Positions 1,556 through 6,230 are shown, numbered from the stretch's first letter. The stretch: DNA of 64,000 bases from Chloroflexota bacterium (GCA_013112575.1 JABFGG010000002.1:186001-250000); one strand, 5' to 3'. The notes: generated by a model not told the origin, from the letters alone. Numbers and translations are program-made.

Positions 1556-1582
1556 AAAAGTCTCCCTATTCGGGAGACTTTT
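1556..1582. terminator. Bidirectional intrinsic terminator between convergent genes
   Basis: AAAAGTCTCCC (1556-1566) and GGGAGACTTTT (1572-1582) form a perfect 11-bp stem with a 5-base loop. It has T-runs on both strands and serves the cyclase gene and the convergent reductase gene. The arm at 1572-1582 and the loop lie inside the last codons of the reductase. Confidence 0.85.
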
Positions 1583-2408
1583 CGCTTGTTTTTTCAAGAG
1601 CGGCCCGGGTTTCGTCCGGGTCTACACTGCTGTAGGGTAGCAGTGTTTGGCCGCCGTCTACCAATATCGTCTGGCCGCGGATCATGCTGGCACCGGGGGT
1701 ACATAGGAAAGCCACTACATCAGCGACATCTTCTACACTGACCAATCTGCCGGTCGGGTTATCTTTAGCCAATTCTTCTAGCAGGCCGTCCTGGCCCATG
1801 GTCTCAAAGTAGTTCAGAGCATCGGTAGCCACGATGCCAGGGGAAACCGCATTGACCACCACATTTTGGGGGGCCAGCTCGATTGCCAGATAACGCGTGA
1901 TGGCTTCCAATGCCGCTTTGCTGGCTCCCACAACGACGTATTCCGGCAGCACCTGGAATGAGCCAGGGCTGGAGATGCTGACGATGACACCCCCGCCGCG
2001 TTTTTCCATGAGGGGAACAGCTTGTTGGGAAGCGAACAATAGCGAGCGGGCGTTGATGTTCATCGTCCAGTCCCAGCCTTTGGGGCGCTGGTCCATGACG
2101 GGCCGGTTATAGCCCGAGGCGGCATTACTGATGAAGAAATCAAGCCCTCCGTAGTGCTCTTCTGCAGCCTGGAAAAGTTGCTCGATATCCTCAATCTCGC
2201 CGACATTGGCCTTCACAATAATGGCTTCACGGCCCAGTTCGCGAACTGCTTCGGCGGTTTCCTCAGCAGGTTCACGATTGCGGTAATAATTGATGACTAG
2301 GTCTGCGCCATCTTTGGCCAGGCGCAATGCAATGGCGCGGCCAATGCCGCGCCCAGAACCGGTGACGAGTGCGATCTTATTTGTTGGGGTCAAATTGGTT
2401 TCCATCAA
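1566..2408 (-). CDS. fabL: SDR-family enoyl-ACP reductase III-like (FabL type)
   Basis: A 280-residue short-chain dehydrogenase. The cofactor motif TGSGRGIG is at residues 16-23 and NAA at about 95-97. The catalytic Tyr and Lys are spaced Y157-x6-K164 (YVVVGASK) rather than the usual Y-x3-K. That spacing, with the SKAALEAITRYLAIEL segment after it, is the hallmark of FabL, the NADPH-dependent enoyl-ACP reductase described in Bacillus. Such enzymes catalyse the last step of fatty-acid elongation. The start overlaps the end of the upstream zinc-ribbon gene by 32 bases in another frame, so the two are co-transcribed. A second Met (2405) is equally possible as start. It could also reduce another 2-enoyl substrate. 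Confidence 0.8.
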   Translation of the reverse strand: MMETNLTPTNKIALVTGSGRGIGRAIALRLAKDGADLVINYYRNREPAEETAEAVRELGREAIIVKANVGEIEDIEQLFQAAEEHYGGLDFFISNAASGYNRPVMDQRPKGWDWTMNINARSLLFASQQAVPLMEKRGGGVIVSISSPGSFQVLPEYVVVGASKAALEAITRYLAIELAPQNVVVNAVSPGIVATDALNYFETMGQDGLLEELAKDNPTGRLVSVEDVADVVAFLCTPGASMIRGQTILVDGGQTLLPYSSVDPDETRAALEKTSEKSPE

Positions 2409-2583
2409 AGTGATTGAAATTTGGGAGCATGGTATTGGTTTCGGGGTCGAAATTGAGGGTTAGATCAGAACAATCAAAGCGGAAGCCGCAGTTGGGGCAA
2501 CTGATCTTGCAAGCATGCGCATACATCGGTGTACCGCAGCAGTCACAAAGATAAGTTTGTTTCTTGAGTTGCTCTGTTTGCAT
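2377..2583 (-). CDS. Small zinc-ribbon protein
   Basis: A 68-residue protein of unknown function with a dense cysteine cluster: CDCC at about 13-16, then HACKISCPNC, and CS near residue 38. The two CxxC-like pairs are typical of a structural zinc ribbon. It lies between a DUF309 gene (gap 5 bases) and the FabL-like reductase (overlap 32 bases), so it is probably translated from one mRNA with them. No Shine-Dalgarno sequence is obvious before ATG 2583. Its size and cysteine layout suggest a metal-binding adaptor rather than an enzyme. No better assignment is possible from the sequence. Confidence 0.7.
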   Translation of the reverse strand: MQTEQLKKQTYLCDCCGTPMYAHACKISCPNCGFRFDCSDLTLNFDPETNTMLPNFNHFDGNQFDPNK

Positions 2584-2588
2584 TGGGT

Positions 2589-3020
2589 CTAATTTCTAAC
2601 CAGGGGTTTAAAAAGGTTCGTATCGAATTGATCCAGCCTTTCCGGGCCTAACCTGCCTGCTGCATGCATGGCTTCTACAAGGTCATGGCGTAACTGCTCT
2701 ACATTAACCCCGCGGCAGGCATCTGGTAACGGCTCCAGATAACGCTTGCTGCGTTCAAACATCTTGGCCGCGCCAACAAAATTCTTGCGCTCGATCTGCA
2801 GGTACGTAACACCTGCCTGCAAGATACCAATGTAGAGGATGCGTGCCGGGCCTTCTTCTGCCAGCCAGGCTTCTTCCAGGGCTTCATGCGCATGCCAAAA
2901 ATCGCCTGCATCAAAAAGGCGCATGCCTTCAATGGCCATAGGGTGCAAGTCTCCCTGACAAGCTTCTGCCAGTTCCTCTTCTGATGGGATTTCGACATCG
3001 CGGTAGGGGGTTTGAGCCAT
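2589..3020 (-). CDS. DUF309 family protein
   Basis: The protein shows the DUF309 core, FDAGDFWHAHEALEEAW, followed by a helical stretch ending in a KMFERSKRYLEPLP segment. Function is unknown in the family; the conserved His/Glu in HAHEALEEAW suggest a metal or ligand site. I place the start at ATG 3020 (143 aa) rather than 3089: the extra codons would run through the terminator of the upstream gene, and a TATACT -10 box sits 10 bases before this ATG. There is no Shine-Dalgarno sequence, consistent with a very short leader. It heads a unit with the zinc-ribbon and reductase genes. Confidence 0.78.
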   Translation of the reverse strand: MAQTPYRDVEIPSEEELAEACQGDLHPMAIEGMRLFDAGDFWHAHEALEEAWLAEEGPARILYIGILQAGVTYLQIERKNFVGAAKMFERSKRYLEPLPDACRGVNVEQLRHDLVEAMHAAGRLGPERLDQFDTNLFKPLVRN

Positions 3021-3030
3021 AGCGAATTGC

Positions 3031-3036
3031 AGTATA
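3031..3036 (-). promoter_or_regulatory. -10 box of a near-leaderless DUF309 transcript
   Basis: TATACT on the minus strand lies 10 bases before ATG 3020, with no ribosome binding site between them. No convincing -35 box is seen. Confidence 0.45.
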
Positions 3037-3044
3037 TCACGCCC

Positions 3045-3078
3045 AATAAAAAGAGGCTGCCTGGCACAGACAGCCTCT
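3045..3078 (-). terminator. Intrinsic terminator of the SHOCT-like operon
   Basis: On the minus strand AGAGGCTG and CAGCCTCT pair (3071-3078 with 3052-3059), the inner CTG/CAG adds to the stem, and TTTTTATT follows. It lies 20 bases past the stop codon of the last operon gene. Confidence 0.8.
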
Positions 3079-3098
3079 AAATGTCTCATAAAGAGCTA

Positions 3099-3467
3099 TT
3101 ATTCAATAAAGATTTCTACGTGTTCACCATCTTCCTCATCATGGACGTCAACGATCTTACCGGTCATACCGGATTTGATGGCCTCGCTAACATCTTCAAC
3201 GCCAATGTCCGGCACAAAGTTGGAGGCGATGTTTAGTCCGGCATCCACAAGACCCAGGGGCAGGTTTACGCTGACCTTGGTCTTGCCTGACCGGCTGTCG
3301 GTGACGCGCACGCGCATATAACGCCCTTCTCCCTGGCGTACCGTGGAGCTCTTCTGTTGGTTGCCGGAAAGGGCCGCCAACAATTTGGCGCCATCTTCCG
3401 CGCTGATCTTGTTGTCCTGCACCATTTGTAGGATCTTCATGCGTTCTTCGCTGGTTGCCATCATCAT
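3099..3467 (-). CDS. SHOCT-like (YvlB/LiaX N-terminal type) domain protein, last gene of operon
   Basis: A 122-residue cytoplasmic protein of unknown function. Residues about 6-33 (EERMKILQMVQDNKIS through KLLAAL) are the short helical module also found in three other products of this operon and in Bacillus YvlB and Enterococcus LiaX, proteins linked to envelope stress. The C-terminal half, VSVNLPLGLVDAG to HVEIFIE, is homologous to the C-terminus of the upstream 239-residue protein: both end DGEHVE(I/V)FI. The start could be any of three consecutive Met codons. It is separated from the upstream gene by 21 bases and followed by a terminator. Confidence 0.75.
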   Translation of the reverse strand: MMMATSEERMKILQMVQDNKISAEDGAKLLAALSGNQQKSSTVRQGEGRYMRVRVTDSRSGKTKVSVNLPLGLVDAGLNIASNFVPDIGVEDVSEAIKSGMTGKIVDVHDEEDGEHVEIFIE

Positions 3468-3488
3468 AATTGTATCCCTGAAATTTTT

Positions 3489-4208
3489 TTATCCAATGAA
3501 CACTTCCACATGTTCACCGTCGTCATCATCCTCAACTTCAATGTAAAAAGGCTGGCCATCATTCTTGTTCTTATCGAGTGCGTCAATAACTTCGTCCACT
3601 ATGGTCTCATCCATGTTTGGAATGTGGTTACCAAAATTCCGCAAAACCCAGGCCGCTGGACGTATGGGTAGCGGTAGACTCACTGCAACTTTGCTATCTC
3701 GGGTTTGAGAGGATTGTTTGACGCGCACGTGCAACCAGGGGCTGTTTCGGCTGGCCCAGGCCAAGGCTATAGCTGCGACACCCAGGAAGAGGGGCACAAA
3801 ACTGCAATAGAACCAGAAATTTGTTCCCGCGGATTGCAAGACACTGTACATCCAGAAGCTTGCGAGGACCGTGGCAGCTACTCCCACCCATAGTGGGATC
3901 GTCCACCAATTTTGCCAGCGTTTGACGCGTGGGTTGTCCTGGAAATGGGATGCTGCTTCTTCGTCTCGAATGTAGCGCATACGAGGCCCATCACTATTGC
4001 TGGCTTCTTCCTCGAAACGGTTGACGGCTTCGTCCGGGCTTAGTTCGCCCCGCTCAACTTTTTCGAGTACTTGCATGGTTTCATTCTTTTCCTGCCCAAC
4101 TGGATTATCCTCTTTTCCCAAGTTGGTAAGCATCTCTGCCCCTTGCTCGGGGTCGAGTTCGCCGTTTTCTATCTTGGCGAGAATACTCATTCTTTCATTG
4201 TCATTCAT
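3489..4208 (-). CDS. Membrane protein with two N-terminal SHOCT-like modules
   Basis: 239 residues. The N-terminus carries two tandem copies of the short module, MNDNERMSILAKIENGELDP and ETMQVLEKVERGELSPDEA. Two transmembrane helices follow (about residues 104-125 and 131-150, WWTIPLWVGVAATVLASFWM and FWFYCSFVPLFLGVAAIALAW). The C-terminal soluble domain, VAVSLPLPIRPAAWV to HVEVFIG, matches the C-terminus of the next gene. The module-membrane-domain layout suggests an inner-membrane partner for the soluble proteins of the operon, an inference from shared domains. It begins 5 bases after the DUF4097 gene ends. No enzyme motif is visible. Confidence 0.75.
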   Translation of the reverse strand: MNDNERMSILAKIENGELDPEQGAEMLTNLGKEDNPVGQEKNETMQVLEKVERGELSPDEAVNRFEEEASNSDGPRMRYIRDEEAASHFQDNPRVKRWQNWWTIPLWVGVAATVLASFWMYSVLQSAGTNFWFYCSFVPLFLGVAAIALAWASRNSPWLHVRVKQSSQTRDSKVAVSLPLPIRPAAWVLRNFGNHIPNMDETIVDEVIDALDKNKNDGQPFYIEVEDDDDGEHVEVFIG

Positions 4209-4213
4209 TTTGG

Positions 4214-5488
4214 TTAACTCTCAGATTCCGCAGGTGGCTCAGGAGCCTCTGGTGGTGTCGGTGCTTCAGGCACATTGCCGTCACTTGCCAGATCACCCTC
4301 TAACGCAGATAAAAGTAACTCAGCTTCTTCTACTGTGATCTTTTGGTCCTGCAACATCTGCAGAATGGCCTGGCGCTCATCATCGCTTACCGGCTCATTT
4401 TTACTTTTGGCGATATTTATGGGAGCGGTGAAGGCAAAGCGTGTTTTGCCACGCTTGCCAGCTTTGCGTGCCTGCCTTTCTGCTCGGCGCTGGGTAGCAG
4501 CTAGCTTGAGCTCTAATTTCCTTTGCGCTCGCTCTACCTTTCGCTGTGCTTTTTCGGCAGCACGTTGGGCACGATCGGAACTTGCCCCGCCAAACTGGAC
4601 GGAGAGCTGGCTTAGCTGGTCGTTGAGGGTGCTCATCTGGGCCTCGATCTGGTCCGTGACTTGCTGGGTGATATCGTCGGCCAGAAATGCCATATCCTCT
4701 GCGAATTCCATATTGACAGCATCATCAAAGTCGTCAAATGGGGCAGTCACGCTAAAATCTATTCTTTCCCCTGCTTCCAGGTCGATCGCCGCGTCCCCTT
4801 CACCGATAGTGAATTCGTGTTTCTCTGCACTGAAATTGTCGGAGCCTTCGGGAGTTTTGACACGAATAGTCTTTGCTTTACTGCGAAGTTGAACTTTCGC
4901 TCCAGTAGCGACCTCTGCTTTACAGGAAAGATTTCCGCCTGCCTGAACCTTGTATTTTGCGCCAGTTTCCACTTCTAATCGCAGACCGACATTGCCTTTG
5001 GATGTGCACTGGATATCTTTTCCCACACCACGATAATTGAGATTGCCATGAATTAAATTAGCTATGAAGGCTTCTTCTACGTCCCTCACAGTTGCGTTGC
5101 CAATCACTTCATCCACGCGCAAACTGCCTTCAATGCGGCTGGCAGCCAGGTTACCCTGGACACTCTCGATCTCCGCAGAACCTAAAAGCTTTAGCGTTGT
5201 ATTGCCATCAATCTGGCCAATTCGAACGTCACCTTCAATTGATTTGAAAGTGGCTTCTCCATGCACGATTTTTATCTCTACCGTTGCGTTGGTAGGGACT
5301 CGCAAATAGAGATTGTCGCGGCAATGACCTTCGATCTTGAAGTCGTTTTGCTGCACATCGAGTGCATCCTTGTTGTCGGCGTCAAAGCGTACGTCGGGTT
5401 GGTCCCATCCTTTGACGCGCAAATTGCCTTCCACGCGATCCAGAACGATAGTTGGTTCGTAAGTAGTATCTTGAAAAATCTTGCTCAT
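4214..5488 (-). CDS. DUF4097-type beta-helix protein with C-terminal SHOCT-like module
   Basis: 424 residues. Residues about 10-235 are short beta repeats rich in V/I and G (VEGNLRVKG, IEGDVRIGQIDGNTTLKLLG), the DUF4097 putative adhesin/beta-helix pattern. A charged helix rich in R, K, A and Q follows (about 305-350), likely coiled coil or nucleic-acid contacting. The end is another module, DDERQAILQMLQDQKITVEEAELLL, before a Pro/Glu tail. There is no signal peptide or membrane helix, so it is predicted cytoplasmic despite the adhesin name. The ATG overlaps the upstream stop codon as ATGA, which implies translational coupling to the DUF2089 regulator. Confidence 0.8.
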   Translation of the reverse strand: MSKIFQDTTYEPTIVLDRVEGNLRVKGWDQPDVRFDADNKDALDVQQNDFKIEGHCRDNLYLRVPTNATVEIKIVHGEATFKSIEGDVRIGQIDGNTTLKLLGSAEIESVQGNLAASRIEGSLRVDEVIGNATVRDVEEAFIANLIHGNLNYRGVGKDIQCTSKGNVGLRLEVETGAKYKVQAGGNLSCKAEVATGAKVQLRSKAKTIRVKTPEGSDNFSAEKHEFTIGEGDAAIDLEAGERIDFSVTAPFDDFDDAVNMEFAEDMAFLADDITQQVTDQIEAQMSTLNDQLSQLSVQFGGASSDRAQRAAEKAQRKVERAQRKLELKLAATQRRAERQARKAGKRGKTRFAFTAPINIAKSKNEPVSDDERQAILQMLQDQKITVEEAELLLSALEGDLASDGNVPEAPTPPEAPEPPAESES

Positions 5489-5871
5489 GTGGCTAACTCG
5501 TTTTCTTGCAACAGGCGCATGGCTTCCTCATAATCGATCTTGCCCTCGTTCAGGTCATCGAGGATGGCGGTGCGTTCTTCTTCACTAAGCCCGCTGATCT
5601 CTTCGCCAGGTTCGTATCCCAATGCTCGGATCACATCATGCAGGCGGTTGCGGATAGTTGGATAAGAAAGATTTAGCTCATCCTCCAAACGGTTAAGCTT
5701 GCCCTCATTACGGATGAACAACTCTACAAAAGCCAGTTGTTCTGGTGTGAGTTGTGCAAAGGGGCTGGCGATAAAACGCCCTTCAATCGTGGTCTCACAA
5801 TTGCGGCAGTGCAATTTGGATACGATCATTTCATCGCCACATACAGGGCAGTCACTGAATATAGGATTCAT
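5485..5871 (-). CDS. DUF2089 family zinc-ribbon/HTH regulator with SHOCT-like module
   Basis: 128 residues. The N-terminal zinc ribbon has CPVC at about 8-11 and CRNC at 22-25. A helix-turn-helix follows (FVELFIRNEGKLNRLEDEL to YPTIRNRLHDV, about 49-80), the DUF2089 arrangement. The C-terminal 25 residues (SEEERTAILDDLNEGKIDYEEA) are the same module shared by the downstream proteins. This is the likely transcriptional regulator of the operon. A weak AGGA lies 7 bases before the ATG, and the gene starts 8 bases after a small upstream gene. The regulatory role is inferred from domains. Confidence 0.82.
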   Translation of the reverse strand: MNPIFSDCPVCGDEMIVSKLHCRNCETTIEGRFIASPFAQLTPEQLAFVELFIRNEGKLNRLEDELNLSYPTIRNRLHDVIRALGYEPGEEISGLSEEERTAILDDLNEGKIDYEEAMRLLQENELAT

Positions 5872-5879
5872 ACCAAGTC

Positions 5880-6086
5880 CTAATGGAAACGGAGTGAGGA
5901 TGTCCGCTGGTACTTTGGTTTACTTATGGGTAGCCGGGTAGGGAGGCGCTTTTGGATTTCGCGGATAAAAAAACGAAAGTCCACAAAGACGCGGGTAAGG
6001 AGGCTCGGGCTGGTCAAACTTTCCAGACGATCAGCCTGAAGATTGCGAGCAGCTTCGTACTGCTGTCCTTCCGTTGTGCAATTCAT
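5880..6086 (-). CDS. Small hypothetical protein, first gene of the SHOCT-like operon
   Basis: A 68-residue, Arg/Leu/Ser-rich basic peptide with no recognised family. It is kept as a gene because GGAGG sits 4 bases before ATG 6086, a perfect consensus promoter lies just upstream, and the next gene starts 8 bases after its stop. It might be a leader peptide or a small regulator; there is no zinc motif or membrane helix. The coding call rests on translation signals and position, not on homology. Confidence 0.5.
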   Translation of the reverse strand: MNCTTEGQQYEAARNLQADRLESLTSPSLLTRVFVDFRFFIREIQKRLPTRLPISKPKYQRTSSLRFH

Positions 6087-6126: not shown

Positions 6127-6154
6127 ATTATAGCAAGAATATCAATAATGTCAA
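6127..6154 (-). promoter_or_regulatory. Perfect consensus sigma-70 promoter for the SHOCT-like operon
   Basis: On the minus strand TTGACA (6149-6154) and TATAAT (6127-6132) are separated by exactly 16 bases. Both hexamers match the consensus at every position. Transcription would start about 33 bases before ATG 6086. The surroundings are strongly AT-rich. Confidence 0.88.
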
Positions 6155-6189
6155 GATGAAACTTTAGAAATGTTTAATATTATTTTCTT

Positions 6190-6230
6190 TTTATTGATTT
6201 TTTATTGGCGAGAATGCATAAATCAATAAA
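6190..6230. repeat. AT-rich inverted repeat, possible terminator of the ygfZ gene
   Basis: TTTATTGATTT (6190-6200) and AAATCAATAAA (6220-6230) are perfect inverted copies separated by 19 bases. It lies between the end of ygfZ and the operon promoter. A stem made only of A/T, except one C, is weak, so the terminator role is uncertain. Confidence 0.4.

Follow-up and report, generated by a model that had tools for sequence, protein, structure and literature searches.

A Chloroflexota DUF2089–Toastrack operon with shared SHOCT-like modules and a phased operator-like array is probably a self-regulating envelope-stress switch

The main-text passages of Ravi et al. 2024 (mSystems, PMC11237479) describe a four-gene Toastrack–DUF2089–SHOCT-like context as a putative PSP-like membrane-stress system, proposed to pass membrane signals to transcription, and predict that SHOCT-like domains anchor to the membrane. 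In Bacillota, LiaX and YvlB (liaXYZ, yvlABCD) are linked to envelope stress and the peptide-antibiotic response, and in LiaX the helical part senses and the Toastrack part inhibits (PMC10269926). Binding of antimicrobial peptides and control of LiaFSR also characterize this type. DUF2089 genes also adjoin membrane or export genes in the leaderless-bacteriocin clusters of enterocin DD14, bawcin and thucin A, as far as the accessible parts of their descriptions go. Here, we analyzed a related operon in a 64,000-nucleotide stretch of a Chloroflexota bacterium genome (GCA_013112575.1, JABFGG010000002.1:186001-250000), referred to as the window. It encodes a DUF2089 regulator (REG), a Toastrack protein (TOAST), a membrane protein (TM) and a small protein (SM), and is probably a self-regulating envelope-stress switch. 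The original prediction for this DNA had proposed an uncharacterized sensing system, which is only half right: DUF2089, Toastrack and PF22746, the family of the shared SHOCT-like module, are widespread families with almost no experimentally tested function, but the four-gene context had already been published as a putative PSP-like system, according to the passages cited above (PMC11237479).

All four open reading frames (ORFs) of the original prediction were found on the minus strand where it had placed them. REG and TOAST overlap by 4 bp, and the next intergenic gaps are 5 and 21 bp.

5485..5871, minus strand: DUF2089 regulator (REG), 128 aa; ORF with PF22747, PF09862 and PF22746 matches
4214..5488, minus strand: Toastrack (DUF4097-type) protein (TOAST), 424 aa; ORF, predicted model and homologue scan
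3489..4208, minus strand: membrane protein (TM), 239 aa, with two SHOCT-like modules, two transmembrane helices and a C-terminal domain
3099..3467, minus strand: small protein (SM), 122 aa, with a SHOCT-like module, a disordered linker and a C-terminal domain

The genes are kept together in relatives. Among 80 named Chloroflexota loci picked by SM similarity, 55 have the order REG-TOAST-TM-SM and three others have it with an additional TOAST-like or SM-like copy (~58/80); seven loci contain REG-TOAST-SM with TM undetected. SM itself is present in 133 of 301 Chloroflexota genomes (E up to 1e-5). A second Toastrack protein lies 3' of SM in some loci, and in locus L084 the C-terminus of this second protein itself matches the module below threshold. 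REG combines a zinc ribbon (PF22747, CPxC...CxxC, 58.4 bits), a helix-turn-helix (HTH) domain (PF09862, 74.8 bits, E 4.1e-21) and a SHOCT-like tail (PF22746), and the zinc-ribbon residues C8, C11, C22 and C25 are invariant in 34 sequences. A possible kinship of the DUF2089 HTH with sigma region 4 (E 0.17) did not recur when the family profile was used and was discarded.

The operon is preceded by a sigma-70-type promoter that is unique in its own genome and coincides with an array of 13-bp palindromic sites (TTRATAWTATYAA-like). Nearly all of the operons have three such sites at a near-consensus promoter of this type. The sites start at -42, -21 and 0 from the -35 T, with a period of 21 bp; the third sits on the -35 box and the other two lie upstream.

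6127..6154, minus strand: sigma-70-type promoter TTGACA-N16-TATAAT, with the -35 box at 6149-6154 and the -10 box at 6127-6132
6185..6197, minus strand: operator-like site I (~-42), TCAATAAAAAGAA, 4.4 bits, degenerate and just below threshold
6164..6176, minus strand: operator-like site II (~-21), TAAACATTTCTAA, 4.9 bits, weak alone
6142..6154, minus strand: operator-like site III (0), overlapping the -35 box, TTGACATTATTGA, 9.0 bits

Across 67 regions upstream of REG, TTGACA-N16-18-TATAAT was found in the same place with at most two mismatches in 59, of which 33 carry mismatch-free hexamers, and with at most one mismatch in 53, against a shuffle expectation of 0.4. Upstream of the -35 box, 158 operator sites were observed versus 33.7 ± 5.8 in shuffles, and the commonest pair spacing was 21 bp. 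A site above 4.5 bits occupies the -42 phase in 13 of the 15 closest-set loci, and the -21 phase holds a site in 12 of these 15 and in 41 of the remaining 45. Furthermore, when the operator model was trained on the 15 closest-set loci only and applied to the other 45, it recovered the sites at -21, -42 and 0 in 28, 24 and 15 loci, respectively, with no more than four per offset in the shuffled control. The untrained words TTGA and TCAA showed the same 21-bp spacing.

The array is largely confined to this operon. In 853 kb, comprising the 80 loci and the whole window, 47 arrays were detected, 44 before REG, three before major facilitator superfamily (MFS) genes and none elsewhere. With a strict pattern in 12 whole genomes, clear arrays appeared only at the operon, marking it in several of them, and the other matches examined fell inside long ORFs. 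In addition, 26 of 30 unrelated promoters from the same loci had no array, and in the loci of the four exceptions an MFS gene precedes the operon. Upstream of the array in L123, L130, L134, L147 and L161, a gene that by eye looks like a CorA-type ion transporter is transcribed divergently from the array region and might share it.

Since the sites are 21 bp apart, they should lie on one face of the DNA, and because the last one covers the -35 box of a near-consensus promoter, autorepression appears most likely; with two more sites on the same face, a cooperative autorepressor is suggested. As the DNA-binding protein of the operon, DUF2089 would be the obvious candidate repressor, a transcription factor whose dimers may occupy up to three palindromic operators. 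We considered it unlikely that DUF2089 instead activates, with the -42 and -21 sites recruiting RNA polymerase and site III being just the -35 box. Two of the three sites do lie upstream of -35, and the promoter requires the TTGACA of site III regardless; however, a promoter already so near consensus (33/59 mismatch-free hexamers) is unusual where an activator is needed, and site III shows enrichment beyond the -35 box, in its second half (TCAA at +9). UP elements lie at ~-40 to -60. An array upstream of -35, near that usual position and composed of an A+T-rich motif of low information (8.2 bits), could be read as a booster of a constitutive promoter, either an UP element or curved A+T-rich DNA, with no relation to DUF2089. 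This reading seems improbable, as the sites show dyad symmetry and a sharp 21-bp period with no sites half a period out of phase (offsets -32 and -11), and 26 of the 30 other promoters are array-free, the exceptions being in MFS-upstream loci, although most of these other promoters have less A+T-rich upstream DNA.

The second line of evidence is the association with efflux genes. MFS genes were found in or beside the operon at 33 of the 80 loci, all of them co-directional, and three have an operator array of their own. The best NCBIfam similarities of these proteins include multidrug, tetracycline and macrolide efflux families (Mef/Tet-like profiles), although they are not named as members because all scores fall under the curated cut-offs. 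Neither the operator array nor the efflux genes entered into the original prediction; they speak to function more strongly than the shared module does and, to judge from the accessible literature, both are new.

The shared module itself corresponds to the Pfam family PF22746 (SHOCT-like_DUF2089-C). All four proteins score above its curated cut-off of 27 bits: REG 28.3, TOAST 30.2, TM 41.1 (two copies) and SM 39.8 bits. The proposal of five copies of one module across four products was thus borne out.

5509..5580, minus strand: SHOCT-like module 1, REG C-terminus; PF22746 and whole-genome search
4295..4381, minus strand: SHOCT-like module 2, TOAST C-terminus (residues 370-398); PF22746, whole-genome search and model
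4107..4199, minus strand: SHOCT-like module 3, TM; PF22746 and whole-genome search
4026..4085, minus strand: SHOCT-like module 4, TM, weaker alone (22.8 bits, E 5.5e-4); whole-genome search
3357..3449, minus strand: SHOCT-like module 5, SM; PF22746, whole-genome search and model

Moreover, the five 27-residue segments are related to one another, with each of their 10 pairings outscoring shuffles (z 2.7 to 7.0), and leave-one-protein-out profiles recovered the module in three of the four proteins (E 8.6e-8 to 1.3e-3 in a proteome of 4000); the TM module was weak in this test (0.93) and clear with Pfam. The module was present in every aligned homologue scanned (61/61 TOAST, 46/46 TM and 71/71 SM). 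None of the four proteins matched the classical SHOCT Pfam model, even up to E = 1. Elsewhere in the genome, just one further copy reached significance, in a second DUF2089 gene (L002, G000:C23:58158-58406; C23:58332), and nothing else scored better than E = 0.26. The neighbours of this second gene resemble an acyltransferase and a MazG-like protein; no Toastrack gene was found within the 3 kb examined, and no operator array.

The window TOAST adopts a Toastrack fold according to its predicted model. The model (mean predicted local distance difference test [pLDDT] score 86) comprises a right-handed beta-helix, followed by a long stretch of helix and, at the C-terminus, a two-helix module.

4742..5488, minus strand: right-handed beta-helix (Toastrack) domain, residues 1-249; AlphaFold pLDDT 93-99 per 10-residue block, Foldseek
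4445..4702, minus strand: long helical (coiled-coil-like) stretch, residues 263-348; predicted model

The best Foldseek match was 4qrk (E 2.4e-6), and 4opw was also matched; both are cited as Toastrack examples in the passages of Ravi et al. 2024 (PMC11237479). VIA Z scores were 10.4 (137 aligned, 2.5 Å) and 12.0 (203 aligned, 4.1 Å). The Pfam DUF4097 model (PF13349) did not match the window TOAST, and matched 28 of 61 aligned homologues, the best at 3.4e-15. An NCBIfam YtfQ match of TOAST (7e-6) lies in the coiled-coil region, far under the 510-bit cut-off, and was rejected.

TM and SM share a C-terminal domain (DGEHVEIFIE and DGEHVEVFIG), in agreement with the original prediction.

3747..3905, minus strand: two predicted transmembrane helices of TM, ~residues 102-124 and 129-154; hydropathy and conservation
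3492..3737, minus strand: C-terminal domain of TM, homologous to that of SM; profile comparisons
3102..3323, minus strand: C-terminal beta-beta-alpha-alpha-beta-beta domain of SM; predicted model

The SM-family and TM-family profiles matched with an hhalign probability of 99.8% (E 6.7e-29) when module and C-terminal domain were compared jointly; the TM C-terminus alone was matched by the SM profile at 4.8e-10. The SM model (mean pLDDT 75.5) consists of a two-helix module, a disordered linker and the beta-beta-alpha-alpha-beta-beta domain, for which no confident fold match was obtained in the PDB (Foldseek E at best 0.18; VIA Z ≤ 5.0). A match of this domain to a designed TIM barrel (1.6e-5) was judged to be chance because no stretch passes alone. 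The two TM helices have Lys/Arg on both outer flanks and a short uncharged loop between them, suggesting by the positive-inside rule an N-in/C-in topology; given these flanks, the modules and C-terminal domain of TM should face the cytoplasm.

Based on these results, we consider the chance somewhat better than even that the operon is an autoregulated, membrane-associated DUF2089–Toastrack stress module, in which DUF2089 is an autorepressor released by a membrane-associated SHOCT/Toastrack complex and efflux is among the outputs. We infer that DUF2089 binds the array and represses, with the SHOCT-like hairpins mediating the contacts and envelope or drug stress acting as the signal. TOAST, TM and SM would be cytoplasmic or cytoplasm-facing, serving as beta-helix scaffold, two-helix membrane anchor and small soluble protein, respectively; because they carry the same hairpin as the REG tail, they are likely docking partners or membrane tethers of REG. 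Upon envelope disturbance, these partners may pull REG off the DNA (or hold it there). With the REG tail module present in all of its partners and a membrane anchor among them, the simplest coupling would be for REG to dock to a Toastrack complex beneath the membrane. The output would be the operon itself and, in many relatives, adjacent efflux-type MFS transporters, within the operon or with their own array. More tentatively, a one-component envelope/drug-stress switch is possible, in which regulator, scaffold, anchor and adaptor are wired by one docking hairpin and three phased operators act cooperatively on the operon and MFS genes.

Several observations weigh against the autorepressor model. 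The operator model derives mostly from relatives; the window holds a degenerate array (4.4, 4.9 and 9.0 bits), the strict operator pattern has no match in the window's own genome, and no MFS gene lies near the window operon. The count of arrays before REG is partly circular because the motif was trained on operon promoters, a circularity that does not affect the MFS matches, the lack of arrays elsewhere or the cross-set test. Part of the A+T-rich phased DNA upstream of -35 could be UP element or curved DNA. With regard to the module, covariation between TOAST and SM (z 3.7) was largely lost when permutation was restricted to clades (z 1.7-1.8), so homotypic pairing was not upheld by covariation; the other module pairs were null, except for a marginal TOAST-TM value at one setting. 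The sole direct test found for a classical SHOCT domain did not support oligomerization (PMC3581485). Modules also group strictly by protein rather than by genome (71/71, 71/71 and 81/81). Homotypic assembly through the shared module, as originally suggested, thus received no direct support and is a tentative possibility.

The same observations, namely modules specialized by protein and lacking covariation and a classical SHOCT domain lacking self-association (PMC3581485), fit the view that the modules are independent membrane-targeting hairpins, each protein binding the inner leaflet separately and REG being controlled by membrane binding, as predicted for such domains in the passages of Ravi et al. 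(PMC11237479). We regard this as rather unlikely, as TM, which has its own transmembrane helices, also carries one or two modules, which would there be redundant for anchoring, and the modules are strongly charged. Clustering by protein would also suit a gene cluster that has no stress function and whose shared module is an old duplication lacking a current common role; however, the retention of the module in all scanned relatives and the operon's association with a dedicated array and with efflux genes make this very improbable.

Directly downstream of the promoter, a leader ORF lies within the interval of the original prediction, which did not mention it.

5880..6086, minus strand: 68-aa leader ORF with a GGAGG Shine-Dalgarno sequence

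Its product could be a sensor or effector peptide. Small ORFs (~60-105 aa) were also seen between promoter and REG in L089, L096, L097, L098, L119, L121, L125, L132, L146, L155 and L157, with a pattern like LGxxLIxxGxxLK and a predicted amphipathic segment, perhaps a helix. The promoter-to-REG distance looks bimodal (~50-160 or 216-355 nt), apparently following the presence of the leader ORF. On the other side of the operon, a DUF309 protein, a 68-aa zinc-finger-like ORF and an SDR gene (window 1566-3089) come close behind SM in the same orientation, with co-transcription possible; nine of the 80 loci have DUF309 after SM.

A search of a plasmid collection gave one match. In Bacillota, a megaplasmid of Niallia taxi carries a reduced version consisting of REG (profile E 4.3e-48) and SM (profile E 1.2e-16). 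There, 21-bp-spaced A+T-rich sites also occur upstream of the regulator, within very A+T-rich DNA. A 93-aa gene directly after REG and SM (L167 6380-6661) resembles a lone C-terminal domain by eye; its profile match was not significant (E 18) and this assignment was rejected.

Like the context of Ravi et al. (PMC11237479), the window operon joins a Toastrack protein and a DUF2089 regulator with zinc ribbon, HTH and SHOCT-like tail; these two members of the four-gene context in the main text are present here. The main-text passages name no protein with two transmembrane helices, no small C-terminal-domain protein, no operator and no MFS link. Because the operon is minimal and comes with a predicted operator as well as a predicted output (multidrug-type efflux), the proposed PSP-like role is directly testable, and this extends to Bacillota through the reduced Niallia taxi version. 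The originally proposed relation of the module to YvlB/LiaX-type envelope-stress (Toastrack) modules also agrees with the passages of Ravi et al. (PMC11237479): in both, a helical SHOCT-like part is combined with a Toastrack beta domain. However, the module is N-terminal to Toastrack in LiaX and YvlB, whereas it is C-terminal here (residues 370-398 versus beta-helix 1-249), and PspC partners there contrast with a one-component DUF2089 regulator in the operon here; no PspC match was found in the four proteins, the leader or the DUF309 and zinc-finger neighbours, and no LiaFS-type gene among the four operon genes. The leaderless-bacteriocin clusters likewise place DUF2089 family genes beside membrane and export genes in antimicrobial or immunity loci; in the accessible descriptions, these proteins are 89-98 aa where sizes are given and no Toastrack gene is described. 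Since LiaX (PMC10269926) and, as far as described, these bacteriocin-associated genes point the same way, membrane-active agents are suggested as the signal.

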